Below, piece after piece: positions 14,221 to 59,213 of a stretch of 64,000 nt of DNA. Location: positions 1 to 64,000 of the forward strand of contig NZ_FOQV01000013.1 of assembly GCF_900113835.1 (NCBI RefSeq), read 5' to 3'. Made by a program: the position numbers and the translations under genes. The DNA is from Allobosea sp. OK403 (GTDB lineage: Bacteria > Pseudomonadota > Alphaproteobacteria > Rhizobiales > Beijerinckiaceae). Under the pieces are notes generated by a model, which saw nothing but the letters and a program-made list of their open reading frames with translations, made no database searches and had not been told where the DNA came from. The number at the start of each line of letters is the position of its first letter. Positions within the stretch are counted from its first letter, which is position 1.

Positions 14221-14231
14221 TTGCCAGACAA
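14221..14231. promoter_or_regulatory. TTGCCAGACAA operator-like site (copy 1)
   Basis: This copy has the same half-sites as the other copies, with one changed central base. It is embedded in CCCGGTTGCC-A-GACAAGTT, a context almost identical to copy 4 at 49714. No intact gene starts directly downstream on either strand, so it may be a leftover of a rearranged promoter. Confidence 0.5.
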
Positions 14232-14503
14232 GTTATTTTTGGGCTTGGACAAAGCTCGCCTCGGAATCCAAAATGCTCTTGGAAACAGGATGACGGGGGC
14301 CCGGCGGGCTTCGCCCATCTCTCATTTCACTCTTCATTGCAACTCATGGCATTCCTCCAGGCAGGCTGTTGAAGCAGTGTCCTGTTTGGCGTTGAGGATG
14401 CCCTCGTCAGGGTTTCAGTAGGCGAAGTTGATCTGGATTTCGGCATCGTCTGGAGTAGACCCGGTTTCGAAGACACCCTTGACGTCATTCTCTGGATTAG
14501 ACG

Positions 14504-14599
14504 ATGCCGCGTTTTCGAAGTGCTTATCCGCCGGAGTTCCGGCGACAGATGATCGAGTTGGTCGGCGGCTCCGTCGCGCCCTGCGACATTTCTAATTGA
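14504..14599 (+). pseudogene. IS3-family transposase OrfA N-terminal remnant
   Basis: The ATG at 14504 reads MPRFRSAYPPEFRRQMIELV, the usual beginning of IS3-group OrfA proteins. It then continues for 11 unrelated codons to a TGA. OrfA normally has about 90-100 residues, so only the first fifth remains and no OrfB is present. It marks an old insertion and deletion upstream of the 14783 gene. Confidence 0.75.
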
Positions 14600-14694
14600 G
14601 CCAACCCGGGATATCTCCGGGTATCGCAGCTAAAATTTTTTGAACCCCGATTGGGATTTAACCGGGCACCCGTTAGCAAAAAACGCTTCGACAC

Positions 14695-14723
14695 TTGTCA
14701 GGCAACCTGTTAACATCTACACT
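14695..14723 (+). promoter_or_regulatory. Promoter with TTGTCAGGCAA operator (copy 2) over the -35 box
   Basis: TTGTCA (14695-14700) is followed by a 17-bp spacer and TACACT (14718-14723), which matches the sigma-70 -10 at four of six positions. The 11-bp near-palindrome TTGTCAGGCAA begins on the -35 box, so a bound repressor would block polymerase. Predicted transcription would start near 14730, about 50 bases before the 14783 start codon. Confidence 0.6.
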
Positions 14724-14782
14724 CGCGTGTACAGAGATTTTTTTGCCGCGGCCATCAGCCTTTGAACGTGAAGAGCGAACCA

Positions 14783-15199
14783 ATGCAGCCACAAGAGCAA
14801 ACTGAGCCCGAAGCCACACTGCGAGTAAGAATGAGCGCTCAAGATACAACCTATCGCAGCGTCATCATCCCAGCCGCTCGGCTCATGGGCTTTTTCGCCG
14901 ATTGCGTCACGCAGATCACGCTTCGCGAAGATCAAGACGGTAGCCTCTTGGCTGCGTACGAAAACGCGCAGTTCAAAAAATCGGTGCATATCGGGGACTA
15001 TATCGAGTTTCAGGCTCGAGTGGTCTCGCGCGGGACGAGGTCACGCCGCATGGGCGTTGTGGCGTTGCGCCATATCCGGGCGCCGGGGCCAGGCGAGTCC
15101 GACAAGCCGCCTGGTACGATCTGCGCCCCCCCGGAAATCGTTGCGGAGGCGATCATCGTCGTCGTCGTCCGCAAAAAAGAAGATATCGCCGTGGCTTGA
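14783..15199 (+). CDS. Hotdog-fold beta-alanyl-CoA / 3-aminobutyryl-CoA ammonia-lyase-like protein
   Basis: A 138-residue single hotdog-domain protein. The line ATLRVRMSAQD, followed by GFFADCVTQITLREDQDGSLLAAY and GDYIEFQARVVSRGTRSRRM, parallels the beta-alanyl-CoA and 3-aminobutyryl-CoA ammonia-lyases. In those enzymes ammonia is eliminated from a beta-amino-acyl-CoA to give an enoyl-CoA. The usual DAHY after RMS is DTTY here and the GGNLVDGA segment is changed, so the substrate may differ. The ATG at 14783 has GAAGAG upstream; a TTG at 14762 is possible. It lies 45 bp before an acyl-CoA ligase, which could supply its thioester substrate. The pair is probably one transcript from the 14695 promoter. 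Confidence 0.65.
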   Translation: MQPQEQTEPEATLRVRMSAQDTTYRSVIIPAARLMGFFADCVTQITLREDQDGSLLAAYENAQFKKSVHIGDYIEFQARVVSRGTRSRRMGVVALRHIRAPGPGESDKPPGTICAPPEIVAEAIIVVVVRKKEDIAVA

Positions 15200-15244
15200 C
15201 TGCCAATTACTTGCAATCTCCCATCTTCGGAAGTTGTCTTGGCT

Positions 15245-16858
15245 ATGACATCTGCTTCTAATTTCCAAATTCTTTGTAGAGAGATTGAGAGCGAGACGCT
15301 TTCAAGTAATTTTGGTGAGGTGTTCGACAATGCAGTCAGGGCTTATGCGACAAAGCCAGCCTGGATACCTGTGGACAGTCCGTCCAGCGCCCTTACCTAC
15401 GCCGATTTAGCTGACCTCGTCGCGAAATCGGCCAGTGCGTTTGCTCACATGGGTGTCCGTAAAGGCTCGCATGTAGGCTTGATCATGCCGACGGCGCCGG
15501 AGCATCTCGCGGCCTGGGTAGCGCTAGCCAAGCTCGGTGCGGTTTCGATCGGAATCAATCCCAGTTATACTCCGAATGAACTCAAATACACGCTAACAGA
15601 TGGCAAAGCGGATTACGTCCTTGTAGCATCTGATTTTCTGGATAATTTGAAGAGTTCCGGCGTTATTGGTTCGACTGTCGATTCTAAAAACGTAGTTGTT
15701 TGGGAAGAAAACTTAGAGTCGAGCGAAACCTGGAATAAACTGCTCGAATTCGCCAAAGATATTCCCGAGTTTGCGTCAATTGCACTCGAAGATCCCATCA
15801 ACATTCTCTATACGTCGGGATCCACGGGATTTCCCAAGGGGTGCGTCCTTCCCCATTCGTATTGGGTTGTCAAAGGAAAGGTCATGGCCAAGCTGTGGCC
15901 TGACGTAACGCGCATTCAAAGTGACGCCCCGTTCCATTACATGGGCCCGCTCTGGCGGTTCGCGTTCGCCTGCTATTTGGGGGCGGCAGTCTGCGTTTCA
16001 CCGCGCGCGAGCCTCACGCGCTTTATGAAGAGATGGCAGGACAATAACATCGATTTTGGATGGGTTAACAATGCGATGAGCATGACGACGCCCGGTGAAA
16101 CCGATGGGAAAAACAATCTTAAAGTACTCGGTGCCTCGAACATCAATCCGCGGCTTCACCGGGCCGCTGAAGCCCGCTTCAACGCTGTCATTCGCGAGCA
16201 TTACGGGATGACGGAAATCGGACTGGCAATCGTCATGCCGAAAGAAGCGGTCGAAATGGTGGGCAGTGGCTCATGTGGTGTCGTAGCCCCTTTCCGCGAT
16301 TGCATGATCGCGGATGAGAGCGGCAATCCGGTCGCCACTGGCGAGATCGGGGAGCTATACGTCAGCGGAATGGGGATCGTAAAAGAGTATATCGGTCGAC
16401 CGGAGGCCAACAGGGACGCTTTCACGGGAAAGTGGTTCAAAACCGGCGACTTGTTCCGCCAGGATGAGAATGGCTTCTATTACTTTCATAGTCGCATCAA
16501 GGATATCATCCGACGCAGCTCCGAAAACATATCGGCCACTGAGGTCGAGGCTGCGCTCGCAACGATTGCCGAGATCGAAGAAGTTGCTGTTGGTCCTGTG
16601 GCCGATCCTATGAGAGGCGAAGAAGTTAAGGCTTTTATTATTCTAAAAGAAGACGAAAGCCCCGATACCGTGACGCCGGCCAGCATAATTGCACATTGTA
16701 GCCATCTTCTGGCGAGGTATAAGCTTCCCAGATACTTCCAGTTTTTCAGCGAATTTCCGCGGACCAGCTCCAATAAGATTGCCAAGAAACTGTTGCTCGA
16801 CGGCCAGGGGACGTCCGTAACGGGTACTTTCGACGTCACGTCTGGAAAATGGTCTTGA
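15245..16858 (+). CDS. AMP-forming acyl-CoA synthetase (CaiC-like)
   Basis: A 537-residue ANL-superfamily ligase that adenylates a carboxylic acid and transfers it to CoA. Visible motifs are the AMP-binding loop LYTSGSTGFPKG (near residue 195), YGMTEIG, GEIGELYVSG, the hinge region FKTGDLF, RIKDIIRRSSENIS, and the C-terminal catalytic Lys in PRTSSNKIAKK. The usual Gly before that lysine segment is Asn here. ATG 15245 is preferred over TTG 15239. Its closest relative in the window is the ligase at 25133-26758, which shares the RRSSENIS block. Linkage with the ammonia-lyase-like gene suggests a beta-amino or unsaturated acid as substrate, but this is inference. Confidence 0.9.
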   Translation: MTSASNFQILCREIESETLSSNFGEVFDNAVRAYATKPAWIPVDSPSSALTYADLADLVAKSASAFAHMGVRKGSHVGLIMPTAPEHLAAWVALAKLGAVSIGINPSYTPNELKYTLTDGKADYVLVASDFLDNLKSSGVIGSTVDSKNVVVWEENLESSETWNKLLEFAKDIPEFASIALEDPINILYTSGSTGFPKGCVLPHSYWVVKGKVMAKLWPDVTRIQSDAPFHYMGPLWRFAFACYLGAAVCVSPRASLTRFMKRWQDNNIDFGWVNNAMSMTTPGETDGKNNLKVLGASNINPRLHRAAEARFNAVIREHYGMTEIGLAIVMPKEAVEMVGSGSCGVVAPFRDCMIADESGNPVATGEIGELYVSGMGIVKEYIGRPEANRDAFTGKWFKTGDLFRQDENGFYYFHSRIKDIIRRSSENISATEVEAALATIAEIEEVAVGPVADPMRGEEVKAFIILKEDESPDTVTPASIIAHCSHLLARYKLPRYFQFFSEFPRTSSNKIAKKLLLDGQGTSVTGTFDVTSGKWS

Positions 16859-17060
16859 TCCATGATCGTCTGATAGAGGTCTGACTCTCTAAATTCGTTT
16901 GCTTCGCCGGCCAAGCGTAATTCATGGCCCGGAAGGCGGCGCCGATCAATCGGGATCGCTTCTGGGTTAGGGACGGGGAATTCGCGCAGGGCGCTTGTCG
17001 GCGCGCTCCCGACGGTCGGTGCCGTCGTCATGTTCTCGGTAAAATGCGGTGCACTCAGAC

Positions 17061-17089
17061 TTGTCAGGCAACCTGCTTAGTGTTATAAC
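17061..17089 (+). promoter_or_regulatory. Promoter with TTGTCAGGCAA operator (copy 3) over the -35 box
   Basis: TTGTCA (17061-17066), a 17-bp spacer and TATAAC (17084-17089, five of six matches to the sigma-70 -10) form a strong promoter. The operator starts on the -35 box. ACTTGTCAGGCAACCTG is shared base for base with the 14695 promoter apart from the flanks, so both operons are probably controlled by the same protein. It should drive 17254-26758. Confidence 0.68.
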
Positions 17090-17109
17090 CTGTCACCTTT
17101 TTAGAGGCG

Positions 17110-17238: not shown

Positions 17239-17253
17239 CCGAGCTGGTTTTAC

Positions 17254-19401
17254 ATGGAGACTACCTTGAATTCGTCGCAGAAAAACCTCCACGCCTTGTA
17301 CAATCCAGGTCACATTGTGATCGTGGGATTCTCAAGGGATGAGAGCAAAGAGCCCGCTATTTTTCTCAGGGAGCTGCTCAATCAGGGGTATAAAGGCAAG
17401 ATTTCGCTTCTCGGGCGCGAGCGTGGGCAGTTTCAGGGTTGTGAAATGTATGACAGCGCTGCCGCGCTGCCCGAGGGAATTGATCTCGCTTTTAATATGG
17501 TGGCGGCAGGAAAAACGTTGGATATCCTGCCGCAAGTCGCGGCCCGGGGCGTCCCGGCCGCAGTCATCTTCACCTCGGGCTTTGCGGAGATGGATCCGTC
17601 GGGCGCCGATCTTCAGCGCAAGCTTGTCGAGGCTTGCAATGCAAACGGGATGAGGGTGGTCGGGCCGAACTGTCCAGGGTATTTCTATCTTCCCAACGGC
17701 ATCAATTTGACGGGTATTCCCGACATCCCTCAAGGTCCGATCGGTCTCATCTCACAGAGCGGCAATGTCGGCATAACCCTCTGGGATCAAGCCAAAACGA
17801 TCGATATCGGATTCTCTGCTTTTGTCGGCGTCGGGAACCAGGCCGACATCCCAATCCATGATCATATCGAGTATCTTGGCCAGGACGACAACACGAAAGT
17901 CATCGCGCTCTATCTGGAGGGTCTACCCGACGGTCACGGGCCCCGCTTCGTGTCGGTGTGCCGCGACGTCAGCCGACGGAAACCCATCGTTGCCCTGAAG
18001 GGCGGCCGGACTGTCGGCGGGATGCGCGCAGCGCAGTCGCATACTGCGGCAATGTCTTCGGCGTCGAAGGTCTATTCTGCGCTGTTCAAAGACTGCGGCG
18101 TGATTGAAGTTGCTCACCTTGAGCATCTGCTTCCTATCGCTGAAGTACTTTATCGTTGTCCTCCGATGAAGGGCCGCCGAGTCGCAATCGTCGGGTCAGG
18201 CGGGGGGCATTCCACCGTTTCGACGGACGAGGTGGAGCTCGCCGGCTTGACGGTCCCGGAATTCAACAGCGAGCTTCAGGCAGAGTACGGCAAAAGGTTG
18301 CCGTCCTATGCGCCAAAGCGGAACCCCGTCGATATGACGGGCGGGTTTACGAAGGATCCGACGCGCTTCGCGCAAATGACTGAACTGGTCCTCGCTCACG
18401 ATCCCAACTTCGACGGCTTCATCAACTATGGGCTGTACGGATTTTACCGTAACGGGAAGCCGCCGGCGGATGCTGTGCACACCTATGAGAGTGCCGGGCC
18501 CGTAATCGGACATGTTCAGGCCCGCAGTGGGCTGCCGGTAATCTTTTACACGCCATACGCATACCGGAGAGATCCGGCCTATTCGGCGCTTCGTAATGCC
18601 GGCATCCCTTGCTACCCCAATATCCACCTCGCAGCATTGGGACTGGCCGCGCTTTACGAGCGTAACCAGCTTTTGACGAAGGCTGCCGACACCGATGCCA
18701 AGGTTGACGGCCCTGCGGAGACTTCGGCCAATCCGGCCTTGCACGGCACGGGCATTACCGAGGCGACGGCGGTCGCCTATCTATCCGGTTTCGGCATTCG
18801 CTTCCCCAAACTGGAGCTATGCCAGACCGGGGACGAGGCCGCTGTCGCCGCCAAGCGGATCGGCTTCCCGGTCGTGCTCAAGGCCGTCCTCCCGGGCGTC
18901 ATGCATAAGAGCGATGTCGGAGGCGTTGCGGTTGGCCTCAGCAGTTCGGCTGCGGTCAGCGAAGCTGCGACAACGATGACCGGACATGTAACAGCCGCGC
19001 TCGGCGCAGGCCGTCAGGACGGCTTTTTGGTTTCGGAAGATCTCGGAAAGAGGCGTGAACTCTTCGTCGGCGTGCGCAAGGATTCGCTGATGGGTGCCAT
19101 TGGGTTGGTCGGATTCGGCGGAGTCTATGCTGAAGCTGTCAACGACACCGCCATATGTCTGCTGCCGGCGACGCCGGCGCGTGTCGCGGCCTGTCTGGAG
19201 CGTTTGCAGAGCAAGTCGATGTGGACCGAGTTTCGGGGGGAGCCGGCAGTGGCCCCCGCCAAAATTGCCGCGCTGTTGAACGCGCTGGATCGGGCGCTGG
19301 CCGCAGATCGGCTGACCGCAATCGAATGCAATCCCGTCATGATCGTCGGCGGTGACCTCATCGCGGTGGACGCCGCGATCGAAACCACAGAGGTGGCCTA
19401 A
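17254..19401 (+). CDS. NDP-forming acyl-CoA synthetase (acetate-CoA ligase family)
   Basis: A 715-residue fused-domain ligase that makes acyl-CoA from acid, CoA and a nucleoside triphosphate, releasing NDP and phosphate. The N-terminus is a CoA-binding Rossmann domain (GHIVIVGFSRDESKEP). The middle is a succinyl-CoA-synthetase-like flavodoxin domain (QGPIGLISQSGNVG), with the phospho-accepting His in AAQSHTAAMSS near residue 265. The C-terminal part (about 500-715) is an ATP-grasp domain (FPVVLKAVLPGVMHKSDVGG). It is first in a nine-gene run with a crotonase (overlap TAATG), an importer, a MaoC-like protein and an AMP-forming ligase. The acid is unidentified. The ribosome site is weak. Confidence 0.9.
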   Translation: METTLNSSQKNLHALYNPGHIVIVGFSRDESKEPAIFLRELLNQGYKGKISLLGRERGQFQGCEMYDSAAALPEGIDLAFNMVAAGKTLDILPQVAARGVPAAVIFTSGFAEMDPSGADLQRKLVEACNANGMRVVGPNCPGYFYLPNGINLTGIPDIPQGPIGLISQSGNVGITLWDQAKTIDIGFSAFVGVGNQADIPIHDHIEYLGQDDNTKVIALYLEGLPDGHGPRFVSVCRDVSRRKPIVALKGGRTVGGMRAAQSHTAAMSSASKVYSALFKDCGVIEVAHLEHLLPIAEVLYRCPPMKGRRVAIVGSGGGHSTVSTDEVELAGLTVPEFNSELQAEYGKRLPSYAPKRNPVDMTGGFTKDPTRFAQMTELVLAHDPNFDGFINYGLYGFYRNGKPPADAVHTYESAGPVIGHVQARSGLPVIFYTPYAYRRDPAYSALRNAGIPCYPNIHLAALGLAALYERNQLLTKAADTDAKVDGPAETSANPALHGTGITEATAVAYLSGFGIRFPKLELCQTGDEAAVAAKRIGFPVVLKAVLPGVMHKSDVGGVAVGLSSSAAVSEAATTMTGHVTAALGAGRQDGFLVSEDLGKRRELFVGVRKDSLMGAIGLVGFGGVYAEAVNDTAICLLPATPARVAACLERLQSKSMWTEFRGEPAVAPAKIAALLNALDRALAADRLTAIECNPVMIVGGDLIAVDAAIETTEVA

Positions 19402-20207
19402 TGGATACCGACCTGCCCATTACGACGATCGAGAACGGCGTGCTCACGCTGACATTCAATCGCCCCGAGCGGCTTAATGCCCTGACGACTCCGATCTATC
19501 GCCATATTCGCGATCAGGTGACGGCTGCCAGCACGGATGACGCGGTGTCCGTGGTTCTGATCAAGGGCAATGGCCGAGCCTTTTCGTCTGGCTATGACCT
19601 TAAGGCGCAGATGTCCAACCGGACCATGGAGCAACGCCTCACCAGTCAACACCTCGATGCGAACGGGGCCCGTTGGGCGATCTGGAACTGTCGCAAGCCT
19701 GTAGTCGCAGCCGTTCACGGGTACTGTCTGGGCGGTGCCCTGGAGTTGGTTCTGCCGACCGACATCACGATCGCAACGGAAACCTGCAAATTCGGCGTTC
19801 CCGAAATCTTGTATGGCGGCGGCCCGGCGTTCAACATGTTCCCGTGGATGATGAGCCACAAGAAGGCCAAGCAGATCATACTCTTGGGTGAGCACTTCTC
19901 CGCTCGGGAGGCATATGAGGTCGGGCTGGCGACAAAGGTGGTGCCGGACGATCAGCTTTCCGAGGCGACCGACAGCTGCGTCGAGCGCTTGAGGCGCATG
20001 CCGAAGGGAGCCCTGTGGATCAACAAGCAAGGGCTGAACAGGGCCTATGAGACCCAGGGCATGGTGCCTCACATCAACAGCTGGCCCGACATGCTGACCG
20101 TGCTCACGCAGATGCCCGACCCCACCCGGGATGGCTTCAAGGAAAAAGTTCTTCAGGAAGGACCGAGGGCGGCCATGAAGTTTCGCGACGCGATGTTCGA
20201 CAAGTAG
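19401..20207 (+). CDS. Enoyl-CoA hydratase/isomerase family protein (crotonase fold)
   Basis: A 268-residue crotonase. The oxyanion-hole segment is GRAFSSGYDLKAQM and the second one is GYCLGGALELVLPTDI. Both glutamates used by hydratases are present, in GALEL and in FGVPEIL. It would hydrate or isomerise an enoyl-CoA. The ATG overlaps the upstream stop (TAATG) with AGAGG just before, so it is coupled to the acyl-CoA ligase that may feed it. Hydratase activity is likely, but other crotonase reactions are possible. Confidence 0.88.
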   Translation: MDTDLPITTIENGVLTLTFNRPERLNALTTPIYRHIRDQVTAASTDDAVSVVLIKGNGRAFSSGYDLKAQMSNRTMEQRLTSQHLDANGARWAIWNCRKPVVAAVHGYCLGGALELVLPTDITIATETCKFGVPEILYGGGPAFNMFPWMMSHKKAKQIILLGEHFSAREAYEVGLATKVVPDDQLSEATDSCVERLRRMPKGALWINKQGLNRAYETQGMVPHINSWPDMLTVLTQMPDPTRDGFKEKVLQEGPRAAMKFRDAMFDK

Positions 20208-20315: not shown

Positions 20316-21374
20316 ATGACAAACAGAGCCGCAGTCCGATTCAGCGACGTCTCGAAACAATACGGGTCCACGACCGTACTTTCGGACTTCAATCTCGACG
20401 TCAAGGCCGGCGAGTTCGTGACTCTGCTAGGGCCGAGCGGATCCGGGAAGACGACCGCATTGAATGCGCTTGCCGGTTTTGTCGAGATTTCCAGCGGCGA
20501 TATCGCCATCGACGATAAAAGCGTGGCGAAGCTGGCCCCCGAAGAGCGCGGGATCGGAATGGTCTTCCAAGGCTATTCGCTGTTTCCGCATATGAACGTG
20601 TTCGATAATGTCGCGTTTCCGCTGAAGCTCAGAAAATATAGTCGATCCGAAATAGCAAGGCGCGTCGAAGACGCTTTAGGTATGGTCAGACTTTCTGACT
20701 TCGCCGGCAGAATGCCGAAAGAACTCTCGGGGGGTCAACGTCAGCGTGTCGCGTTCGCCCGCGCGGTCGTGTTCGAACCGCCGGTCTTGTTGATGGATGA
20801 GCCTCTCTCTGCGTTGGATCTCAAGCTACGAGAGGCGATGCGGTTGGAAATCAAGCGCTACCACAGCCAGCTTGGATGCACGATTTTATTCGTGACGCAC
20901 GACCAGGGCGAAGCGTTGGCGATGTCCGATCGTATCGCCGTGATGGGCAATGGCAAAATTGTCCAGATCGATACGCCGCGAAACATCTACGACCGTCCCA
21001 ACAACCGTTACGTCGCGGAGTTTATCGGACAGACCAATTTTATCGACGCCGCGCTTCTGCGGCACGGCGTTCGTGGGGCCGGCCTGCTGCAGCCCTCAGA
21101 TGAAACGGCTGGAAAGGAGCTTCCTCAGCTCTTGAGTGTCAGGCCGGAAAGACTGCGACTGGGAGTGACTGCTGAGCAGGCCGACGTTGTTTTCGATTGC
21201 GAGATCGACCAAGTCTTGTTTCTCGGCGAAAGCACCGAGTTGAGTTTAACGGCAGCAACGGGTCAGCCGCTTGTTGCCAGAACCGCAGGTGCAATTAATG
21301 ATCAGCATACTGAAAGAGGGAGTAAGTTGAAGGTCGGCTTCGATATGAGTGATGCTGTCGTATTGTCCAATTAA
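20316..21374 (+). CDS. PotA-type ABC transporter ATP-binding protein (cassette 3)
   Basis: A 352-residue ATPase with Walker A GPSGSGKTT, Q-loop FQGYSLFPHM, signature LSGGQRQR, Walker B VLLMDEPLSALD and switch THDQGEALAM, plus a C-terminal TOBE-like part. It comes first in this cassette (ATPase, binding protein, two permeases), unlike cassettes 1 and 2 where it is last, so it was probably acquired separately. It lies 108 bp after the crotonase with no obvious terminator between. Confidence 0.9.
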   Translation: MTNRAAVRFSDVSKQYGSTTVLSDFNLDVKAGEFVTLLGPSGSGKTTALNALAGFVEISSGDIAIDDKSVAKLAPEERGIGMVFQGYSLFPHMNVFDNVAFPLKLRKYSRSEIARRVEDALGMVRLSDFAGRMPKELSGGQRQRVAFARAVVFEPPVLLMDEPLSALDLKLREAMRLEIKRYHSQLGCTILFVTHDQGEALAMSDRIAVMGNGKIVQIDTPRNIYDRPNNRYVAEFIGQTNFIDAALLRHGVRGAGLLQPSDETAGKELPQLLSVRPERLRLGVTAEQADVVFDCEIDQVLFLGESTELSLTAATGQPLVARTAGAINDQHTERGSKLKVGFDMSDAVVLSN

Positions 21375-21397
21375 ACTCAAGATAAGGGGAACGTAAA

Positions 21398-22483
21398 ATG
21401 ACTGGTGAAATCGTAACAAGACGTAATGTCGTAGGCATGCTTGGCTCGGCTGCGGCCGCTTCTGCTCTGCCGGGTTCGGTCGCGTATGCCCAGTCCAAGG
21501 GGGAGCTCACGGTTGCGCTGCCCGGGGGCGTCGTAAAGGAGATCGAGACGGAGCTGTATGCGAAGACGCTGACGGCCGAGAAAGGCTATAATATCAAGGT
21601 CGTCGTCGCTGACAGCGGCGTCCTGGAGCAGCTTAGGGCTCAGGTCACGTCCAAGCGTGTGATCTGGGACGTTACGGAAATCAATTCGCAGACCTATCCC
21701 GCAATGGATCTCGATCTTCTGGAGAAGATCGATTACTCGATCGTTGATCCCAAGAATATTCTTCCCGCATACGCCAAGCGCCCCAACGCCGTCCTGGTGC
21801 TGGTTTGGGCTACGGCCCTGACCCAACGCATCGACAAACTGCCGGCTGGCAAAGAAATGACCAGTTGGGCCGATTTCTGGGACGTGAAGACCTTCCCAGG
21901 CCCGCGTGCTATGCGGCGCCAGGCAAATCACAACCTGGAATTCGCCCTTATCGCCGACGGAGCGCCGAAGGATAAGGTCTATGAGCTGCTCGCCACGGAC
22001 GAAGGCGTCAATCGCGCCTTCGCGAAAATGGACAAGATCAAACCGCATATCAACGCCTGGTGGGAAAGCGGAGCCCAGGCTGTCCAGCTCATGTCGGACG
22101 GCGAAGTCTATTATTCGCCGATGTTCAACGGACGCCTTCAGAAGCTGACCGATTCAGGCATTCCCACCAAGATTGCGTGGGCAGGCGGCGCGTTCCACAT
22201 CACCTATCATGGCATCTTGAAGGGGTCGAAGAACGTCAAGGAAGCGCATGAGTGGCTGCGGATCCGCGCGACCAATCCCGAACTTGCCGCGAAATATGTT
22301 GAGACGGTTCCCTATCCCGCGGCCATTCCGGGCGCTTTCGACAAGCTCCCCGCAAAGCTGCAGGCCCTCCTGCCCACCACGCCTCCGAATCCGGAGATCA
22401 TGTATATCGCCGACGAAGGCTTCTGGTACTCCGCCCGGGGCGACAAGATTCGCGAACGCTTCCTTGAATGGGTTATTTCCTGA
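21398..22483 (+). CDS. Tat-exported periplasmic substrate-binding protein (PotD-type, cassette 3)
   Basis: A 361-residue binding protein with a twin-arginine signal (VTRRNVVGML, hydrophobic run, likely cut after SVAYA). The mature domain starts KGELTVALPGG and keeps the family blocks SWADFWDVKTFPGPRAM and NLEFALIADGAPKDK. AAGGGGA lies nine bases before the ATG. It should capture the ligand for the permeases at 22539 and 23362. The C-terminus differs from the cassette 1 and 2 binders, consistent with another ligand. Confidence 0.88.
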   Translation: MTGEIVTRRNVVGMLGSAAAASALPGSVAYAQSKGELTVALPGGVVKEIETELYAKTLTAEKGYNIKVVVADSGVLEQLRAQVTSKRVIWDVTEINSQTYPAMDLDLLEKIDYSIVDPKNILPAYAKRPNAVLVLVWATALTQRIDKLPAGKEMTSWADFWDVKTFPGPRAMRRQANHNLEFALIADGAPKDKVYELLATDEGVNRAFAKMDKIKPHINAWWESGAQAVQLMSDGEVYYSPMFNGRLQKLTDSGIPTKIAWAGGAFHITYHGILKGSKNVKEAHEWLRIRATNPELAAKYVETVPYPAAIPGAFDKLPAKLQALLPTTPPNPEIMYIADEGFWYSARGDKIRERFLEWVIS

Positions 22484-22494
22484 CGTCACCTCAC

Positions 22495-22518
22495 GCGGAG
22501 GGCATTCGTGCCCTCTGC
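22495..22518 (+). other. Intercistronic hairpin with TTCG loop after the binding-protein gene
   Basis: GCGGAGGGCA and TGCCCTCTGC flank TTCG, giving a ten-pair stem with one G-U pair and an extra-stable UUCG loop. There is no T-run, and the next gene starts 21 bases on. Such hairpins often protect the binding-protein mRNA from decay, so that it is made in excess over the permeases. Confidence 0.6.
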
Positions 22519-22538
22519 ACTCCAACTCGAGTGGTGCA

Positions 22539-23357
22539 ATGCAAAGATTCGGTTCTCTTCTTCTACTGCCGGGATTGGCGCTTATTGCAACATTTCTGGT
22601 TGTGCCAAGCGTCGATACGCTTTTAAGCAGCGCGTTCGATCCGGAATTTTCGGCGAAGCATTTTATCGCTCTCTGGGAACGGACCGCTTATTTTCAAGTT
22701 CTGGCCAGGACCATCACCGTTGCGTTGGTCGTCGCATTCCTGTGTGCCCTGATCGGATATCCGATCGCCTACTATATTTCTCAACAGCCCCCGAAGACCC
22801 AGGTCTGGCTTCTGTATCTATTCCTCATCCCGATGTGGATGAGCGCGCTTATCCGTTCCTATGTCTGGATCGTTCTGATTGGTCGAGAGGGTATCGTAAA
22901 CAACGTTCTGATGAGCATCTCTCTCATCGATACGCCTTTGAAAATGATGTATACGACCGGTGCTGTTTACATCGCCATGGTGCAGATCATGCTGCCGATC
23001 CAGGTGTTCAATTCATACAGCGCCATGAAGGACGTCGATCCGGATTTGATCAGGGCTGCTCGTGTCTTGGGTGCGCGGCCCGGGCAGGCCATGCGTCGGG
23101 TGTTCCTCCCCCTCAGCATCCAGGGCACGAGCACTGGAGCCGCCATCGTCTTCATGATGTCCACCGGGTTCTTCGTCACTCCGGCCCTGGTCGGTGGGCG
23201 GCAGGACATCATGCTCGGCAACCTCATCACGTTCCATGTCGAGCGCATGAATCCGGGTTTCGCCGCCGCCCTTGGCATCGCGCTTCTCGCCTCGGCTTTG
23301 ATCGGCGTGATTTTCATCAAGAAGATGGGTTCACTCATCGCCCGAAAATTGGTGTAG
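22539..23357 (+). CDS. PotB-type ABC transporter permease (cassette 3)
   Basis: A 272-residue permease starting MQRFGSLLLLPG. A longer open frame back to 22248 lies wholly inside the binding-protein gene and is rejected. Six helices are visible and the coupling loop AARVLGARPGQAMRRVFLPLS follows the EAA pattern. It is followed after four bases by the PotC-type partner. Confidence 0.88.
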   Translation: MQRFGSLLLLPGLALIATFLVVPSVDTLLSSAFDPEFSAKHFIALWERTAYFQVLARTITVALVVAFLCALIGYPIAYYISQQPPKTQVWLLYLFLIPMWMSALIRSYVWIVLIGREGIVNNVLMSISLIDTPLKMMYTTGAVYIAMVQIMLPIQVFNSYSAMKDVDPDLIRAARVLGARPGQAMRRVFLPLSIQGTSTGAAIVFMMSTGFFVTPALVGGRQDIMLGNLITFHVERMNPGFAAALGIALLASALIGVIFIKKMGSLIARKLV

Positions 23358-23361
23358 AGAC

Positions 23362-24159
23362 ATGAAAACCAGCAAGGCGTTGAGCATATTTTTTTGGGTG
23401 GCCGCCGCTTTCCTGATTCTGCCGCTCTTTATCGCAGTTCCGATATCTTTTTCGAATAACGAATTCCTGCGCTTTCCTCCGACCAATCTGGGGTTGAGGT
23501 GGTACTGGGCCTATCTGCTTGACGAGCAGTGGCGAGACGCGACGCTGCTGTCGCTGCGTGTCGCTCTCTTTTCATCGCTGCTGGCAACGTCAGTGGGCAC
23601 GATCACGGCACTCGCCATCGACCGTGGGGTTGCTCACCTGAAGGGCCCGCTGCTGACGATCATAGGCTCACCGGTCGTCATACCCCATATCTTCATGGCG
23701 CTTGGTATCTTCGTGATCGCGCTCAGGTTCAACATATTGGGAAATGAGGCTGTTCTGATCGGTGCGCACGCAACGATGGGCCTGCCTTTCGTCGTCCTGA
23801 TCGTTCTTGCTCAGGTTCAGCAACTCGATATTGCGATCGAGCGTGCCGCCCGGATTCATGGCGCAACGCCGGTGCGGACGTTTTTCTCCATCACCCTGCC
23901 CTCGCTTCGTCCCAGCATCATCGCGGGCGCCATCATCGCCTTCTTCACGTCTTTCGATGAACTGACGGTGGCGCTGTTTTTGATGAGCGGCAATGAAACC
24001 CTCCCGATGCGGCTGTGGGCGAACATGCGCCTGGATATCAGTCCCGTGATTGCTTCCGTTGCCACGGTGCTGATCGTCGCGACAACGGCTGGAATGCTCG
24101 TTGCGGAGTTCTTACGCCAAAGGGCGAGTGACCGGGAACTTGGTGGTCTTGGTCACTGA
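23362..24159 (+). CDS. PotC-type ABC transporter permease (cassette 3)
   Basis: A 265-residue inner-membrane permease with six helices and coupling loop ERAARIHGATPVRTFFSITLPSL. The conserved FFTSFDELTVALFLMS segment near the C-terminus is typical of PotC-type subunits. Four bases separate it from the preceding permease. It completes the third polyamine-type importer in the window. Confidence 0.88.
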   Translation: MKTSKALSIFFWVAAAFLILPLFIAVPISFSNNEFLRFPPTNLGLRWYWAYLLDEQWRDATLLSLRVALFSSLLATSVGTITALAIDRGVAHLKGPLLTIIGSPVVIPHIFMALGIFVIALRFNILGNEAVLIGAHATMGLPFVVLIVLAQVQQLDIAIERAARIHGATPVRTFFSITLPSLRPSIIAGAIIAFFTSFDELTVALFLMSGNETLPMRLWANMRLDISPVIASVATVLIVATTAGMLVAEFLRQRASDRELGGLGH

Positions 24160-29800: not shown

Positions 29801-30054
29801 TTAGAGCCCATTTGGAAATTCACGGATGAGCGTTTCTGCGGGTGAGATTTCCGCCCATGGCGACGAGGATCATGGCCTTTGAGACGTCAGCCGCGCACGA
29901 GCCGGCGCCGGCGTGTCATCCATCCGAAGGTCCGCTCAATGACCCAACGGCGCGGCAGCACCTCGAAGCCCTGGGGACCGTCGCGGCGACGGATGATCTC
30001 GACGACGAAGTCGAGATAGGCCGCCTTGTCCATCAGCTTGAGGCGGTCATATCG
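29801..30054 (-). mobile_element. IS5-family transposase 3' remnant
   Basis: On the minus strand the translation reads [19 protein letters not shown], then [20 protein letters not shown], the C-terminal DDE-transposase region of IS5-group elements. A small frame change follows, then [13 protein letters not shown] and a stop at 29820. GAGCCCATTTGGAAAT near 29803 looks like the outer end of the element. The 5' part of the element is missing and the right side joins directly to a GMC oxidoreductase fragment. Confidence 0.8.
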
Positions 30055-30279
30055 TTCACCCGGTCCAACGGGCAGACCATTTACCACCCGGTTGGTACTC
30101 GCCGAATGGGCAGTCGGGCGGATGCGGTTGTCGACAGTCGCCTAAAGGTTCGTGGGATTACAGGGGTTCGTGTTGTCGACGCGTCTATCATGCCAACTCA
30201 AATCTCCGGAAACACCATGGCAGCCGTGCTGATGATTGCGGAGAAAGCTTCCGACCTTATACGTGAGGATCAAAAGTAG
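30055..30279 (+). pseudogene. C-terminal fragment of a GMC (choline dehydrogenase-like) oxidoreductase
   Basis: About 74 residues remain, from [16 protein letters not shown] through [20 protein letters not shown] and [12 protein letters not shown] to the stop, matching the C-terminal block of GMC flavoenzymes (about 530 residues). The same block occurs in the intact gene at 46824-48422. The N-terminal FAD domain is gone, cut at the IS5 junction. It is not functional. Confidence 0.85.
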
Positions 30280-31351: not shown

Positions 31352-31374
31352 CCGCCGCGTCCCTCTCCGCAGTG

Positions 31375-31407
31375 TTGACGCGCTGTCGCCAATCGGCAGC
31401 GTATATT
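31375..31407. promoter_or_regulatory. LysR-type operator/promoter region
   Basis: CGCTG (31381-31385) and CAGCG (31397-31401) form an inverted repeat with 11 bases between, the usual LysR box geometry. TATATT (31402-31407) follows as a possible -10 for the esterase. TTGACG at 31375 lies too far (21 bp) for a strong constitutive promoter, as expected if activation is needed. Confidence 0.5.
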
Positions 31408-31445
31408 GACGGCCTGAGCACATCAACGGCATCAGGAGTGAGATC

Positions 31446-32384: not shown

Positions 32385-32401
32385 TGACGGGTAGAGGCCA
32401 A

Positions 32402-48424: not shown

Positions 48425-49279
48425 TCAGATATTCTCGCGCTTCCGGCTCGCCGGAACCGCGCTATCATCGACGCGCTCGGGGTTCGCCCCCATCCAGTCG
48501 GCCATGAGTTTCAATTGGCATTGCAGCATCGGCCAGCCCGGATGGGTGCGGCAGCCAGCTTTTGCCGCGGCAGCCAGCAGGGGCGTTACCTCCGGCTGCA
48601 TGATGATCTCGGCTACGATCTGGTTAGGCATCAAACGGGCGACGTCCAAGGGGAACGGATCGTTCTCTTTGAGCCCCATCGACGTGGCGTTGACGACGAT
48701 ATCGTGCCCTGCCGGGTCGATCGAGCCGACCTCAGAGCGAACGTCGTGATGAACCTGGCGCAATCGCGCGACAAGGTCACTGCAGCGCTCCAGGGTTCGA
48801 TTGGCGATCGTCAGCCGAGCAACGCCCGCCTGCGCCAACGCGAAGGCGATCGCGCTCGCTGCTCCCCCCGCGCCAGCCAGGTAGACGCTGCGGCCCTCGA
48901 TGCTGATGCCCTCCTGTCGAAGGCCAGCCACAAACCCTGCACCATCGAGTATATGTCCAATGAGGCGCCCCCCGTCATCGCGGCGGACCGCATTGACCGC
49001 TCCTACGATGCGCGCCGCTTCGGTGACCTCGTCCAGCAGCGGGATGATCGACGTTTTGTGCGGCACGGTCACGATGAACCCAGCCAGGTTTTTCCAGTTT
49101 CGGATCCCGTCGAGCACCGTCGACAGGTCACGAGACTGCACGTGAATGGGTATCATGACGCCGTCATATCCACGCCGCCTCAGCAGGTCGTTGATACCCT
49201 GGGGAGTTTTGACATGAATGACAGGATCCGCCAATATTGCGAATATTTTCGTACTTCCGGTTATAACAACCTTGCTCAC
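48425..49279 (-). CDS. Shikimate/quinate dehydrogenase family protein (AroE-like)
   Basis: A 284-residue NAD(P)-dependent dehydrogenase. The substrate domain has ITGSTKIFAILADPVIHVKTP and the catalytic Lys in FIVTVPHKTSI. The active Asp is in ILDGAGFVAGL. The cofactor loop is YLAGAGGAASAIAF and a second block reads NATSMGLK. The order is standard for AroE, but two features (VIHVKTP in place of hSxSP, and linkage to GMC and YdiJ-type oxidases) suggest a catabolic paralogue, perhaps for quinate-like acids. The GTG at 49279 is preferred over TTG 49294; neither has a good ribosome site. Confidence 0.85.
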   Translation of the reverse strand: MSKVVITGSTKIFAILADPVIHVKTPQGINDLLRRRGYDGVMIPIHVQSRDLSTVLDGIRNWKNLAGFIVTVPHKTSIIPLLDEVTEAARIVGAVNAVRRDDGGRLIGHILDGAGFVAGLRQEGISIEGRSVYLAGAGGAASAIAFALAQAGVARLTIANRTLERCSDLVARLRQVHHDVRSEVGSIDPAGHDIVVNATSMGLKENDPFPLDVARLMPNQIVAEIIMQPEVTPLLAAAAKAGCRTHPGWPMLQCQLKLMADWMGANPERVDDSAVPASRKRENI

Positions 49280-49713
49280 TGTATTATAGTCCAAAGCAAT
49301 TTATTCGTGTGTCTGCAAAATATTTCAACATATTGATTGCATCCCAATGAGATCTTGCTCTAGCTGAATTCTCTCATCTCCCGGCGACCACTCATGAAAA
49401 TTCGTTGGCTTGTTGAGATGAATAGCCCTTTGCGCCCCCAAAGACGCCGCCGACGGAACCGCATCTTTCGAACATAGCCATGTCGAACTCACAGGCGCCC
49501 GAGACCGAGCATCTTATCGGAGATGGCTGCGCCACATGATTTCGCTCCATGCCTTACGACACGCAGCCAAGTTGCCGCGTCGAACGGGATCGATATGAGC
49601 GCGCGCCCGGCGACGGATCCTATCCAGAATTGCACGACTGGCCCTCCCCGGCGGTTCCCGCTGTCGCCCCTGATCGGGTCAACGCATTTCGGAAATCTCT
49701 ACTGCAAACCCGG

Positions 49714-49742
49714 TTGCCTGACAAGTTGGCTTGCGCTAAATT
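49714..49742 (+). promoter_or_regulatory. TTGCCTGACAA operator-like site (copy 4) in a possible promoter
   Basis: The exact reverse complement of copies 2, 3 and 5. TTGCCT, a 17-bp spacer and TAAATT (49737-49742) could form a plus-strand promoter for the thioesterase at 50048. The 19-base flank CCCGGTTGCC-T-GACAAGTT is shared with copy 1. Confidence 0.5.
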
Positions 49743-50047: not shown

Positions 50048-50503
50048 ATGCCGCTTATACCTAATGAGTTGTTCGAAACACACGCGATTGAAACCGGTTG
50101 GCGCTTCGGCGTGATCATGACCGCTCAGTGGCGTGATCTCGATGCATTTGGCCACGTCAATCACCGAACCCATCTCGCATGGTGTGAAGAGGCACGGAAC
50201 AGATACCTGGAAGCCGTAGGCTTGCCGCCCCTCGCGTTCGACTCGCCCGGCCCGGTCTTGAAAAGCATAAGCTTCAACTACGACAGGGCGCTTGGCTATG
50301 GCGACGAGATCGTTGCGACTGCCGCAGTTGTCAGCATGCGACGCACCAGTTTTCGCATGCGATATGCAGTCTGGCACCATGGTTGCGTCGGCAGGGGCGA
50401 TGCTCTTGCCGTGCTTATGCTGAATTCAACGGGCGAGAAGATTGCCATCCCGCCCGAAGTTAGATCGCGCATTCTCGAAATGGACCAACCACAGGAGGAT
50501 TAG
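50048..50503 (+). CDS. Hotdog-fold acyl-CoA thioesterase (YbgC/4HBT type)
   Basis: A 151-residue single hotdog protein with the 4-hydroxybenzoyl-CoA thioesterase signature DLDAFGHVNHRTHLAWCEEAR, holding the catalytic Asp, plus SISFNYDRALGYGDEI. It would hydrolyse an acyl-CoA to acid and CoA. GAAGG lies eight bases before the ATG. It lies between two TTGTCAGGCAA-type sites and just upstream of the GntR gene, consistent with membership of the same regulon. Confidence 0.85.
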   Translation: MPLIPNELFETHAIETGWRFGVIMTAQWRDLDAFGHVNHRTHLAWCEEARNRYLEAVGLPPLAFDSPGPVLKSISFNYDRALGYGDEIVATAAVVSMRRTSFRMRYAVWHHGCVGRGDALAVLMLNSTGEKIAIPPEVRSRILEMDQPQED

Positions 50504-50591: not shown

Positions 50592-50618
50592 TTGTCAGGC
50601 AAATTGGTTGTCTGAGTA
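50592..50618. promoter_or_regulatory. TTGTCAGGCAA operator (copy 5) with a second imperfect copy, upstream of GntR gene
   Basis: TTGTCAGGCAA at 50592-50602 is followed 16 bases later by TTGTCTGAGTA (50608-50618), which matches the symmetric form at eight of eleven positions. The doubled site lies about 140 bp before the GntR start, where an autoregulatory operator is expected. Confidence 0.6.
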
Positions 50619-50742: not shown

Positions 50743-51480
50743 TTGACCGCAACCAAGATTCAGTCAGAGCCGGCCCGGGATGTCCTCAACCGATCGCCTT
50801 CGCTCGCGGACACGTTGGCCTCACGCCTGCGCGAAGAGATCGCCTCCGGACGCCTCCAGCCGGGAGACCGCCTGCCAACGGAACAGCAGATCGCCATTAC
50901 CTATGGCGTCAGCCGATCGATCGTAAGAGAGGCCGTGGGGCGCCTGAAGCATGACGGGTTGGTGATATCGCGCCAGGGCGCCGGCGCCTTCGTCGCCGAA
51001 CCGGGGGCGAGCCCGGTCTTCCGGCTCGATGGGGCGGACTTCTCGAACAAGGACGAGTTGCGCAACATCATCGAATTGCTGATGGCAGTCGAGGCTTCCG
51101 CTACCGAGCACGCGGCCGAGCGGCGCAGCGAGGCGGACCTGCTCGTGATCGAGGCGACTGTCGCTGCCATGCAGGCAGCCATTGATCGCGGTGAGTCGGG
51201 CGTTGATGACGACGTCGCGTTCCACCGCGCCATTATCGATGCTGCGGGAAACCCATTTTTCCGTGACTTGTCGGAATTTCTTGACCGCCGGGTGCGGAAA
51301 TTCATCCGGGCCGCCCGTGCCAACACCGCCCGCCTGGCGGGAATGGCCCAGATGGTGCAGGGCGAGCACAGGGCGATTTTCGATGCCATCGCCAACCGGG
51401 ACAAAAAAGCCGCCCGAGACGCAGCCGAGACGCATCTGAAGAACGCGGCCAAGCGGCTCGCACTCTATCTTGGTGATTGA
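50743..51480 (+). CDS. GntR-family transcriptional regulator, FCD (FadR-like) subgroup
   Basis: A 245-residue regulator. The winged helix-turn-helix (about 15-85) reads LASRLREEIASGRLQPGDRL then YGVSRSIVREAVGRLKHDGL. The C-terminal FCD domain keeps metal/effector residues in DVAFHRAIIDAAGNPFF and GEHRAIFDAI. The start is taken as TTG 50743; the open frame reaches TTG 50620, but that lies at the predicted promoter. FCD proteins bind short palindromes and are released by small acids or acyl compounds. It is the best candidate reader of the TTGTCAGGCAA sites. Confidence 0.88.
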   Translation: MTATKIQSEPARDVLNRSPSLADTLASRLREEIASGRLQPGDRLPTEQQIAITYGVSRSIVREAVGRLKHDGLVISRQGAGAFVAEPGASPVFRLDGADFSNKDELRNIIELLMAVEASATEHAAERRSEADLLVIEATVAAMQAAIDRGESGVDDDVAFHRAIIDAAGNPFFRDLSEFLDRRVRKFIRAARANTARLAGMAQMVQGEHRAIFDAIANRDKKAARDAAETHLKNAAKRLALYLGD

Positions 51481-56279: not shown

Positions 56280-56300
56280 GATTTGACACAGCAAACGCAT

Positions 56301-56312: not shown

Positions 56313-56334
56313 GCCGACAACTTAGGTAACGATG

Positions 56335-57102: not shown

Positions 57103-57529
57103 AGCCCGTCCCGAAAGAGTTGAGTGGTTGAGGATCGCGCGATTCCAAGGGGTTGTTCAGGCCAACTTGGAACAAGCGATGTAGACCCCAACCACTCGCC
57201 GACAGCATAGTCGCGCGGGGCTTCGATACGAAACCGATCTAACGGATGCGGAGTGGCGGCTTGTCGAGTCGCACCTGCCGGCAGCAAGAACGACGGGCCG
57301 GCCACGGACCTGGCCGCTGGGCGAGATCGTCAACGCCATCTTCTATGTGATGCGCGGGGGCATTTCCTGGCGGCTTCGGCCAAACGACCTGCCACCGCGC
57401 GGCACGGTCTATCGCTGGTTCACCGATTTGTGCGTTGCTGGTGTCTTCATATCGCTATTCTTTATCGACACATCATCATTCCAAGTCCGCCAAGCAAAAA
57501 TTCCGGGCGGGCATTTGTTGAAATTTTGA
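57103..57529 (+). mobile_element. IS5-family transposase 5' remnant with early stop codon
   Basis: GAGCCCGTCCCGAAAG at 57103 looks like the terminal inverted repeat. The orfA-type reading YETDLTDAEWRLVESHL, GRPRTWPLGEIVNAIFYVMR and GGISWRLRPNDLPPRGTVYR follows, ending near 57440 without the rest of the transposase. The expected start ATG (57179) is followed at once by TAG, probably a changed TGG. The element is both truncated and mutated. Confidence 0.8.
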
Positions 57530-57595
57530 ATGAAGAGCCGACCAGCCATCGGCTTGCCGCTGCGGGCGATCATGTGACGGCAGGAGCGGCTCGAT

Positions 57596-58663
57596 TTACG
57601 CGAAACCCTCCAGGCGATAGACGCGGGCAGCCGTCCGACGGAAAAGATCCGCGCGTTCATCCTCCGACAGCGATGCTGTGGCGCGCTTGAATGCGTTCCA
57701 CAGCATCCGATAGCTGCACCCGCCCTTGTCGACCGGGAAGTTGCTGGCGAACATGCTCCGCCCAGGCCCAAACACGTCAATCGCAACATCGATGAAAGGC
57801 CCCCACAGGTCGGCCAGCGTCGCCGATGGGACTGGGGCCGGATGATCGCGCAAGCCGAAGCCGCCATAACGCATACCAAGACCGCTGATCTTCATGAAAA
57901 TATTGGGACGCCGCGCCAAATCGCGCATGCTTGCGGACCATTGTCTGAATACCTCATCCTTGCGCAGGGCGTACTGCTCGATCATCAATGGTGCGCCCAG
58001 ATGATCGACGATGATCGTCGTTTCCGGAAAGGTGTCAGCCAGGTCAGCCAATTCGTCCAGCTGAGGGTGATAGAGCCAGGCATCGTAGGACAGACCGTAG
58101 GCCGCAAGACGGCTGAAGCCCTCGCGGAAGCGGTCGGTCCCGAGCAGTCCGCGAGGCGACAGGCATCTGGTGTCCTGGAGGTTTGGATTCTCGTCCCAGA
58201 TCGATGTATTGCGGATCCCGCGCATCCGCCCCCGCCCGGCCTCGATATGCGCCTGGAGCACCTCGTCGACGACATCACCCTTTGTCAAATCCGTGAAAGC
58301 GACGATGCCCGCGCCCACCTCGGGGCCGGCCGGGTTGCTTCGCTTCAAGCTCTCACCGATTTCGGCCACGAACTGCGTTTCGCCCACAGGGCGGAGATGG
58401 GGCGGGCCGCTCCTCGTGAAATGCGATGAGGCCTCGACATGAACTGTGGCCCTGACCCGGTGGCCATCCGCGAGATCGCGCCGAAATTCTTCGGCGAGAT
58501 AGCGATTTTTCGAGTGGTTCCACAGATGATGATGGGGATCGATGATGGTGAGGCCCGGATCGATAGGCGCCTCCTGGGTTCGTCGCAGCCATGAATCGTC
58601 GACCTGTGTCCTTCCTTCCCATTCCGGATCGATCCCAATCAAGTCAAGCATCGACATAGTCAT
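57596..58663 (-). CDS. TIM-barrel amidohydrolase family 2 protein, second copy
   Basis: A 355-residue paralogue of the protein at 28679-29740. It shares the metal segment TIIDPHHHLWN, HLRPVGETQFVAEI, IIVDHLGAPL, MFASNFPVDKGG and the final LFRRTAARVYRL. By family it would open a lactone or hydrolyse a similar bond. ATG 58663 or the later ATGs at 58657 and 58654 are possible starts. It stands alone on the minus strand, between an IS5 scrap and a broken peptide-transporter ATPase. Confidence 0.87.
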   Translation of the reverse strand: MTMSMLDLIGIDPEWEGRTQVDDSWLRRTQEAPIDPGLTIIDPHHHLWNHSKNRYLAEEFRRDLADGHRVRATVHVEASSHFTRSGPPHLRPVGETQFVAEIGESLKRSNPAGPEVGAGIVAFTDLTKGDVVDEVLQAHIEAGRGRMRGIRNTSIWDENPNLQDTRCLSPRGLLGTDRFREGFSRLAAYGLSYDAWLYHPQLDELADLADTFPETTIIVDHLGAPLMIEQYALRKDEVFRQWSASMRDLARRPNIFMKISGLGMRYGGFGLRDHPAPVPSATLADLWGPFIDVAIDVFGPGRSMFASNFPVDKGGCSYRMLWNAFKRATASLSEDERADLFRRTAARVYRLEGFA

Positions 58664-58699
58664 TTTCTTGTCCTCATTTTTAAGGTTGCCGCCTGGCCG

Positions 58700-58890
58700 T
58701 TCGAAATAGGTTTATGCTCTGGGCGTGAACGAGAACGGCCAGCGCGGACGCAGCCTCGTCAGAGATGACGAACCGGCGGTTCGTTGCCGACGCCCGCGCT
58801 ATCCCGATACGCTGCTGCTGCCGACCGGATAGTTCATGGCGAACCTTTCAAGATGAGCGTCGCCGAGACCAATCCGTCCCATCACCAGTA
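58700..58890 (-). pseudogene. Fragment of an oligopeptide ABC transporter ATPase (OppF/DppF type)
   Basis: On the minus strand [14 protein letters not shown] is followed, after a one-base frame change, by [16 protein letters not shown] and [19 protein letters not shown]. These are the ABC signature and Walker B of Opp/Dpp ATPases, with key residues already altered (the Walker B region has DEAASALA for DEPVSALD). Nothing remains of the Walker A half. It is a decayed piece of another peptide importer. Confidence 0.75.
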
Positions 58891-59213
58891 GGAGCGCAGA
58901 CCGCTTAAGAATGCGGCGGCGCGAATTCAGGTCACCATGTTGCCTGACAAGATTGAATAATGCTAGGGTGAAAAATGACTGGCTGGGGCGACGAGACCTC
59001 GTCACCAAAGGACGGGATATGGATAGATCTCGTATAGGTCATTACGAGAAATCGAGCGCTGCCGTATAGTACACATTGTTTTATTGTCAGTTTTTAGTTT
59101 AAGTTATTAGACAGCCTTTTGTTTAATATAATTTATCACAACCCAATATTATTGGAAGATAAATTTCAGAAATAATATTCAAGAATTATACACAGATCAA
59201 GAGAAAACAGACC
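58891..59213. other. AT-rich upstream region of the 59214 gene
   Basis: It holds the sixth TTGTCAGGCAA-type site (58940) and then about 150 bases of strongly AT-rich DNA before the start codon, including a perfect TATAAT at 59127-59132 with no good -35. No gene is seen. Confidence 0.45.
58940..58950. promoter_or_regulatory. TTGCCTGACAA operator-like site (copy 6)
   Basis: The exact reverse complement of copies 2, 3 and 5, lying 264 bp before the 59214 start and about 280 bp from the divergent amidohydrolase start. Reversed, its flank CTTGTCAGGCAACATG agrees with the other copies over the first 13 bases. Confidence 0.5.

Follow-up and report, generated by a model that had tools for sequence, protein, structure and literature searches.

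Six copies of a short palindromic site occur in the 64,000-nucleotide stretch analysed here (positions 1 to 64,000 of contig NZ_FOQV01000013.1 of Allobosea sp. OK403, assembly GCF_900113835.1; hereafter the window). They comprise five exact copies of TTGTCAGGCAA and one variant and are spread across 45 kb. With a probability of about 0.88, these sites serve as operators for a GntR regulator of the FadR subfamily (gene at 50743–51480), which would repress the units of a plasmid-borne acyl-coenzyme A (CoA) pathway. A single GntR regulon under the 50743 protein had been proposed in the first-pass annotation, made from the letters of the window alone. At the level of sequence the regulon is well supported by the concentration of the sites, by their tracking with orthologues of the regulator and by the gene set of the rhizobial plasmid pRlX3, and the case for the 50743 protein as its regulator is strong.

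Exact copies of TTGTCAGGCAA were found on the plus strand at 14695, 17061 and 50592 and on the minus strand at 49714 and 58940; the site at 14221 is the variant TTGCCAGACAA (minus-strand reading TTGTCTGGCAA). All six had been placed correctly by the first-pass annotation. They had also been described as intergenic, and none of the six was located within a listed open reading frame (ORF) of at least 150 amino acids. Genome-wide, the exact sequence occurred only five times, always in the window. The self-palindromic class TTGYCWGRCAA was found 10 times in the 6,639,129-bp genome, and six of these copies were within the 64-kb window (reversed control, 5 copies). No copy was detected in the rest of the 140-kb contig; the four copies outside the window all read TTGCCAGGCAA, and three of them were inside ORFs of at least 150 amino acids. 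The Poisson probability of six or more copies in 64 kb was 4.7e-12 when the rate was taken from outside the window and 1.7e-11 when it was taken from the control, values that are optimistic because the class was defined after the six sites had been seen. A 17-bp extended pattern, likewise chosen with the six sites in view, matched seven positions in the genome with at most one mismatch, six of them the window sites, and 14 positions with at most two mismatches (reversed control, 7). With a scoring matrix built from other loci alone, without window sites, the six sites scored 21.4–28.6 bits; elsewhere in the window no position exceeded 10.0 bits, and among 30 first-order simulated windows the maximum was 17.5 bits.

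Two looser forms of evidence were discarded. Matching with two mismatches gave 21 hits in the window vs. 13.5 ± 4.1 in shuffled sequences, 6 of 100 shuffles reaching 21; since this is near background, the argument is built on the exact palindromic class. The mere presence of the 11-mer anywhere in a genome was uninformative, as 163 of 296 family genomes contain one.

The site tracks with the regulator in related genomes. Among 298 genomes of the family, 23 besides that of the window had a homologue at E ≤ 1e-45, 20 of them at 63–81% identity and three at 42–43%. When 1.5-kb flanks were scanned, the site was present at none of the 20 orthologue loci. This apparent refutation was overturned by longer stretches (14.8–20 kb), which placed the site about 2.7 kb upstream: exactly one TTGYCWGRCAA was present in all 18 of 18 orthologue loci, in every case as TTGCCTGACAA, in a single orientation and 2639–2767 bp upstream of the regulator. 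Each of these sites is flanked on one side by a divergent gene for an importer binding protein, 71–100% identical to that of locus L059, and on the other by a unit of a medium-chain reductase (MDR), two SDR-family genes (SDR1 and SDR2) and the regulator. Gene names of the L059 unit were assigned by eye, and the other loci were matched to L059 homologues. A 19th orthologue (G141) has the site as judged from coordinates; the 20th (G053) was left out of the count, its 3-kb contig being too short. Two named Aquabacter loci (L047 and L049; 71% identical) carried the site 2824 and 2846 bp upstream, and overall 21 of 21 assessable orthologues (19 of 19 in the family sample and 2 of 2 further ones) had it upstream of the regulator. 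All five plasmid-borne homologues examined (55–59% identity) had the site 101–178 bp before their annotated start (Rhizobium ruizarguesonis, Agrobacterium tumefaciens, two R. bangladeshense, and Shinella; five of at least 15 listed, from 2013 matching records). Two of the three homologues with 42–43% identity had it at −90 and −37. No site was detected within 1.5 kb at the loci of 11 GntR paralogues from the same genome, two of which have looser TTGNCNGNCAA matches, or in the stretches scanned at eight loci of homologues with 26–36% identity. Around other copies of the motif (loci L078–L115 and L001–L004), one weak GntR match was found within 1.5 kb (L080), where the motif copy lies inside an ORF (L141).

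Additional sites in relatives were considered as a sign of a wider regulon and mostly discarded, since 18 of 21 in 19 chosen stretches were inside ORFs of at least 150 amino acids. Those left after this filter were in L128 (from G141), L131, and L145. The site at L128:5120 is an intergenic TTGCCTGACAA between genes that by eye resemble a TRAP-type solute-binding protein and an enolase-superfamily protein; it is a possible second target in G141.

The operators and the genes near them are as follows, with identities to pRlX3 homologues and matrix scores where available:

14215..14231, minus strand: operator variant TTGTCTGGCAACCGGGT (the 14221 site), 21.4 of 31.2 bits
14695..14711, plus strand: operator TTGTCAGGCAACCTGTT, 24.8 bits; TTGTCA as −35 and TACACT as −10 with 17-bp spacing
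14762..15199, plus strand: hotdog protein, 3-aminobutyryl-CoA ammonia-lyase-like (Kal-like), NCBIfam NF052388 at 1.2e-23; 79.5% to pRlX3
15239..16858, plus strand: acyl-CoA ligase (AMP-forming), PF00501; 65% to pRlX3
17061..17077, plus strand: operator TTGTCAGGCAACCTGCT, 24.8 bits; TTGTCA as −35 and TATAAC as −10 with 17-bp spacing
17254..19401, plus strand: ADP-forming acyl-CoA ligase, PF13607 and PF13549; 67% to pRlX3
19401..20207, plus strand: enoyl-CoA hydratase (crotonase), PF00378; 75% to pRlX3
20316..24159, plus strand: ATP-binding cassette (ABC) importer with TOBE-type ATPase, binding protein and two permeases; 69–74% to pRlX3
46824..48422, minus strand: GMC oxidoreductase, downstream of the AroE-like gene, NF002550 above cut-off; 66% to pRlX3
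48425..49294, minus strand: shikimate-dehydrogenase-like (AroE-like) protein; 56–57% to homologues in L059 and L074
49708..49724, minus strand: operator TTGTCAGGCAACCGGGT between the AroE-like/GMC genes and the SDR remnant, 24.6 bits
49840..49932, plus strand: 3′ remnant resembling the first SDR gene of the relatives' MDR-SDR-SDR-GntR unit, from a short-subsequence search
50048..50503, plus strand: 4HBT thioesterase, PF13279
50592..50608, plus strand: operator TTGTCAGGCAAATTGGT, 28.6 bits; its 11-mer ends 141 bp before the regulator start
50743..51480, plus strand: FadR-type (FCD) GntR regulator, the proposed binder, PF00392 and PF07729
57596..58663, minus strand: amidohydrolase
58934..58950, minus strand: operator TTGTCAGGCAACATGGT between the amidohydrolase and the MDR reductase, 28.4 bits
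59214..60230, plus strand: medium-chain (quinone-oxidoreductase-like) MDR reductase; 61% to pRlX3

The hotdog protein is called Kal-like only, because its NF052388 score of 83.8 bits is below the curated cut-off of 160. Its true start may be at 14831, as the database copy (P0121) is 122 amino acids long. The MDR reductase likewise scored below cut-off with TIGR02824 (211 vs. 296.8 bits), and one of the two importer permeases, having no Pfam match, was named from its pRlX3 homologue. Together, the ligases, crotonase, reductase and thioesterase, as named from their sequences, indicate no more than the processing of an acid in the form of CoA esters. The first-pass annotation had named the genes downstream of the sites, in general correctly; the 14221 site alone heads no convincing gene, and the 49714 site also faces the AroE-like/GMC pair. 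The 14221 site may be a second, more distant operator of the Kal-like/ligase pair. The SDR remnant (63% over 30 amino acids, E 3e-9) lies between the 49714 site and the thioesterase gene, and for this reason the 49714 site probably once belonged to the operon of the regulator itself, the MDR and SDR genes of which would have since been lost. An AroE-like homologue is near the regulator in both relatives compared (L059 and L074). At 50592, autoregulation of the regulator gene is probable from the position of the site.

That the operator-bearing genes belong together is supported by plasmid pRlX3 of R. ruizarguesonis TP15 (CP140871.1; about 293–329 kb, of which 50 kb was taken). This stretch contains homologues, assigned by identity and position rather than by a tree, of the operator-bearing window genes plus several neighbours. 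They form two runs, each on a single strand and both close to the gene for a regulator of 59% identity. One run consists of the contiguous Kal-like, ligase, thioesterase, and MDR genes; the other, on the opposite strand, holds those for the ADP-forming ligase, crotonase, and importer. The regulator gene adjoins that of the GMC oxidoreductase. One site precedes the regulator/GMC pair, two precede the ADP-ligase run, and a one-substitution site, TTGTAAGGCAACTTGGT, precedes the Kal-like run (Kal operator TTGTAAGGCAA). The distal site before the ADP-ligase run is the TTGTCTGGCAA variant, as at 14221, and could serve a divergent chemotaxis gene too. On pRlX3 the same site stands before several co-functional units, as expected of a regulon conserved in relatives. 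The GMC oxidoreductase gene reads away from the 49714 site, and its pRlX3 homologue likewise from the site at L147:12192. Another one-substitution site, TTGTAAGGCAACCTGGT at L147:19928, precedes a sugar ABC importer, a candidate further target on pRlX3; the scoring matrix included the first four pRlX3 sites and not this one.

In the window, the MDR gene is 42 kb from the Kal-like/ligase pair and has its own site, whereas on pRlX3 these genes are contiguous. The thioesterases of the window and of pRlX3 share only 26% identity, and the window copy may be a replacement. The idea that the pathway genes were separated by later insertions therefore stands in part: the contiguous order elsewhere and the decayed SDR remnant agree with it, while the direction of change is not fixed by a comparison of only two genomes.

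An alternative is that the regulator controls its own locus only (sites 49714 and 50592) and that the other four sites are functionless residues of copied promoters. The single site per stretch in the 18 family loci and the lack of a target at 14221 are in line with it. We consider it improbable: the pRlX3 sites also precede the ADP-ligase and Kal-like runs, the sites at 14695 and 17061 can form the −35 element of a plausible promoter, and the flanks of the six sites differ by eye beyond the extended motif, so that they do not represent one recent copy.

The 50743 protein has an N-terminal GntR winged helix-turn-helix (HTH) domain (PF00392, 75.9 bits; cut-off 27) and a C-terminal FCD domain (PF07729, 81.5 bits; cut-off 24.3). 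The metal site of FCD domains is composed of Asp/His/His/His. The motif GVSR with the recognition-helix Arg, D-x3-H, EH, and the last His were present in the 50743 protein and in 24 of 24 aligned motif-bearing homologues. Homologues at E ≤ 1e-30 numbered 821, the query counted, and the closest solved sequences were PdhR entries (9jpj etc., E 1.7e-39). The protein does not qualify as PdhR, LldR or NanR as such: its scores were 109.7 bits for NanR (cut-off 260), 96.2 for LldR (311), and 91.2 for PdhR (330), and none of the 25 listed of its 28 NCBIfam matches was above cut-off. In PMC4494728, HTH position 28 (numbered by our own alignment) is tied to an operator base that is T here. As proof of specificity this code was discarded, since it fails to explain two homologues (L149 and L150) that have Arg-28 and retain the site.

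Another regulator could bind the sites. Three candidates are encoded near sites in the window, namely a GntR protein (60385–61122), an XRE-cupin protein (gene end at 13882), and a LacI-type protein (51859). A fourth would be a counterpart of the second GntR protein of pRlX3, whose gene lies next to the Kal-like run in divergent orientation. This possibility is as improbable as the previous one. A comparison of 60385 homologue loci from 12 genomes found a site within 1.5 kb in 0 of 13, a distance to be read with the knowledge that the site of true 50743 orthologues is 2.7 kb away. In the HTH of the 60385 protein, Ala replaces the recognition-helix Arg of the 24 aligned motif-bearing homologues.

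The form of the site comes close to the operator consensus of the FadR subfamily, TKGT/ACMA with 3-nt spacing (PMC4494728). When TTGT-CAG-GCAA was compared with TKGT-N3-ACMA, the left half and the spacing matched, and the right half, GCAA, was one base off. In the 18 family sites, read in the TTGTCAGGCAA orientation, the next six bases are C-T-T-G-G-T, of which five are invariant and one is shared by 17/18. Further flank positions (e.g., 19, 22, 25, −10, and −13) are invariant as well, so that within the family this CYTGGT box is inseparable from promoter conservation. Among six plasmid sites, 12C and 16G occurred in 6/6; among the six window sites, 12C was found in 5/6, 15G in 6/6, 16G in 4/6, and 17T in 6/6. 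Several FadR-subfamily groups have a weaker half-site 7–12 nt from the centre, according to PMC4494728. At 17-bp spacing after TTGTCA, the −10 element matched at 5/6 positions for the 17061 site (TATAAC) and at 4/6 each for the 14695 and 50592 sites; on the plus strand at 49714 it was 4/6 (TTGCCT/TAAATT). That the sites are simply −35 elements or chance matches is very improbable: TTGTCA is near the −35 consensus, relaxed matching barely exceeds chance, and conservation in the 18 family loci extends past the site (positions 19, 22, and 25 invariant) as in a promoter, but all 11 bases are retained throughout the 18 family loci and at the majority of the plasmid and window sites, where the flanks differ, and the sites are concentrated in the window genome-wide.

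For the regulon of the 50743 protein we propose the following mechanism. The protein very probably binds TTGTCAGGCAA (near-palindrome TTGYC-W-GRCAA), perhaps with the neighbouring CYTGGT box. Repression is proposed, as a protein bound over the −35 region would block RNA polymerase; it would act on the regulator's own gene and on the Kal-like/ligase, ADP-forming ligase/crotonase/importer, AroE-like/GMC and/or thioesterase, and MDR reductase units. The regulator would be released when its FCD domain takes up a small acid or CoA ester arising from the pathway. More tentatively, a four-gene operon could have been split on the plasmid, each piece acquiring or keeping its own operator, so that one regulator would still co-ordinate genes 45 kb apart. 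On this reading the operator is asymmetric: CYTGGT, about 9 nt away from the palindrome (centre to centre), would be a third half-site, suggestive of more than one dimer.

Several observations weigh against this regulon. The 14221 site is without a clear target gene of its own, the genes served by the divergent sites 49714 and 58940 are ambiguous, the −10 match is weak at 14221 and 58940, and the 58940 site is 264 bp from the MDR gene. No site was found within 1.5 kb of the third homologue with 42–43% identity (G027), and Arg occupies HTH position 28 in the two site-retaining homologues mentioned above. The Kal-like and ADP-ligase genes are rare, so pRlX3 is the only other record that bears on the conservation of their sites, and there the Kal site has a substitution. 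At E ≤ 1e-12, only one other family genome among 296 searched had a Kal-like match, and a word-based search of 5.8 billion proteins gave 16 entries at E ≤ 1e-25, the query counted. No further close cluster was found in Kal-like and ADP-ligase searches of 296–397 genomes, and three remoter Kal-like loci (38–52% identity) contained no TTGYCWGRCAA in stretches of 3.3–3.4 kb.

The system shares with PdhR, LldR, NanR, and FadR of the FadR subfamily the GntR and FCD domain architecture, a palindromic operator near the TKGT-N3-ACMA form, and divergent sites; it differs in the half-site GCAA instead of ACAA, perhaps in the CYTGGT box, and in its proposed plasmid-borne acyl-CoA targets. With pRlX3 it shares homologues of the regulator, Kal-like protein, ligases, MDR, crotonase, importer, and GMC oxidoreductase and the same sites, and differs in gene order and in the Kal operator, as described above. 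The family importer/MDR-SDR-SDR-GntR loci have the orthologous regulator, the identical 11-bp operator, and an AroE-like homologue in common with the window, but only one operator per stretch and an MDR 32–34% identical to that of the window. Among the literature matches listed for TTGTCAGGCAA or TTGCCTGACAA, no title concerned a bacterial transcription regulator, and 'TTGTC' did not occur in a further set of listed papers. The main text of PMC4494728 has neither 'TTGTC' nor 'Rhizob' at a word start; its supplementary site lists may hold an earlier report. The regulon is an unnamed, new example of a well-known class, and operators at each putatively displaced operon piece would be its more unusual point. 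For an FCD-GntR clade that none of the listed NCBIfam models names above cut-off, these data supply a regulator together with its proposed operator and gene set; they also make a rare, plasmid-borne route of acid degradation accessible to testing. The comparison with pRlX3 provides a case for studying how operators follow genes as operons come apart.

The window probably belongs to a repABC plasmid of at least 140 kb, since a RepA partition protein of the repABC type (597 bits, above cut-off) is encoded outside the window at 107666–108826 of the same contig (C15). The GC content of the window was 58.3% vs. 62.6–68.5% in 15 loci from other contigs. Between the 14221 and 14695 sites, positions 14440–14580 translate to RFRSAYPPEFRRQMIELVGG, which we take to resemble a remnant of an insertion-sequence transposase. 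A second GMC oxidoreductase is represented at 29842–30279 by a C-terminal fragment (64% over 89 amino acids to that of pRlX3), apparently a truncated duplicate. Three homologous TOBE-type ABC importers are encoded in the window (2661–6682, 8324–12301, and 20316–24159), two of them without an operator nearby. Genes for a LysR regulator, an alpha/beta hydrolase, and a flavin mononucleotide oxidoreductase at 30464–33514 encode proteins 71–86% identical to those of pRlX3 and have no operator in the window; by this similarity they are a neighbouring unit common to both plasmids.

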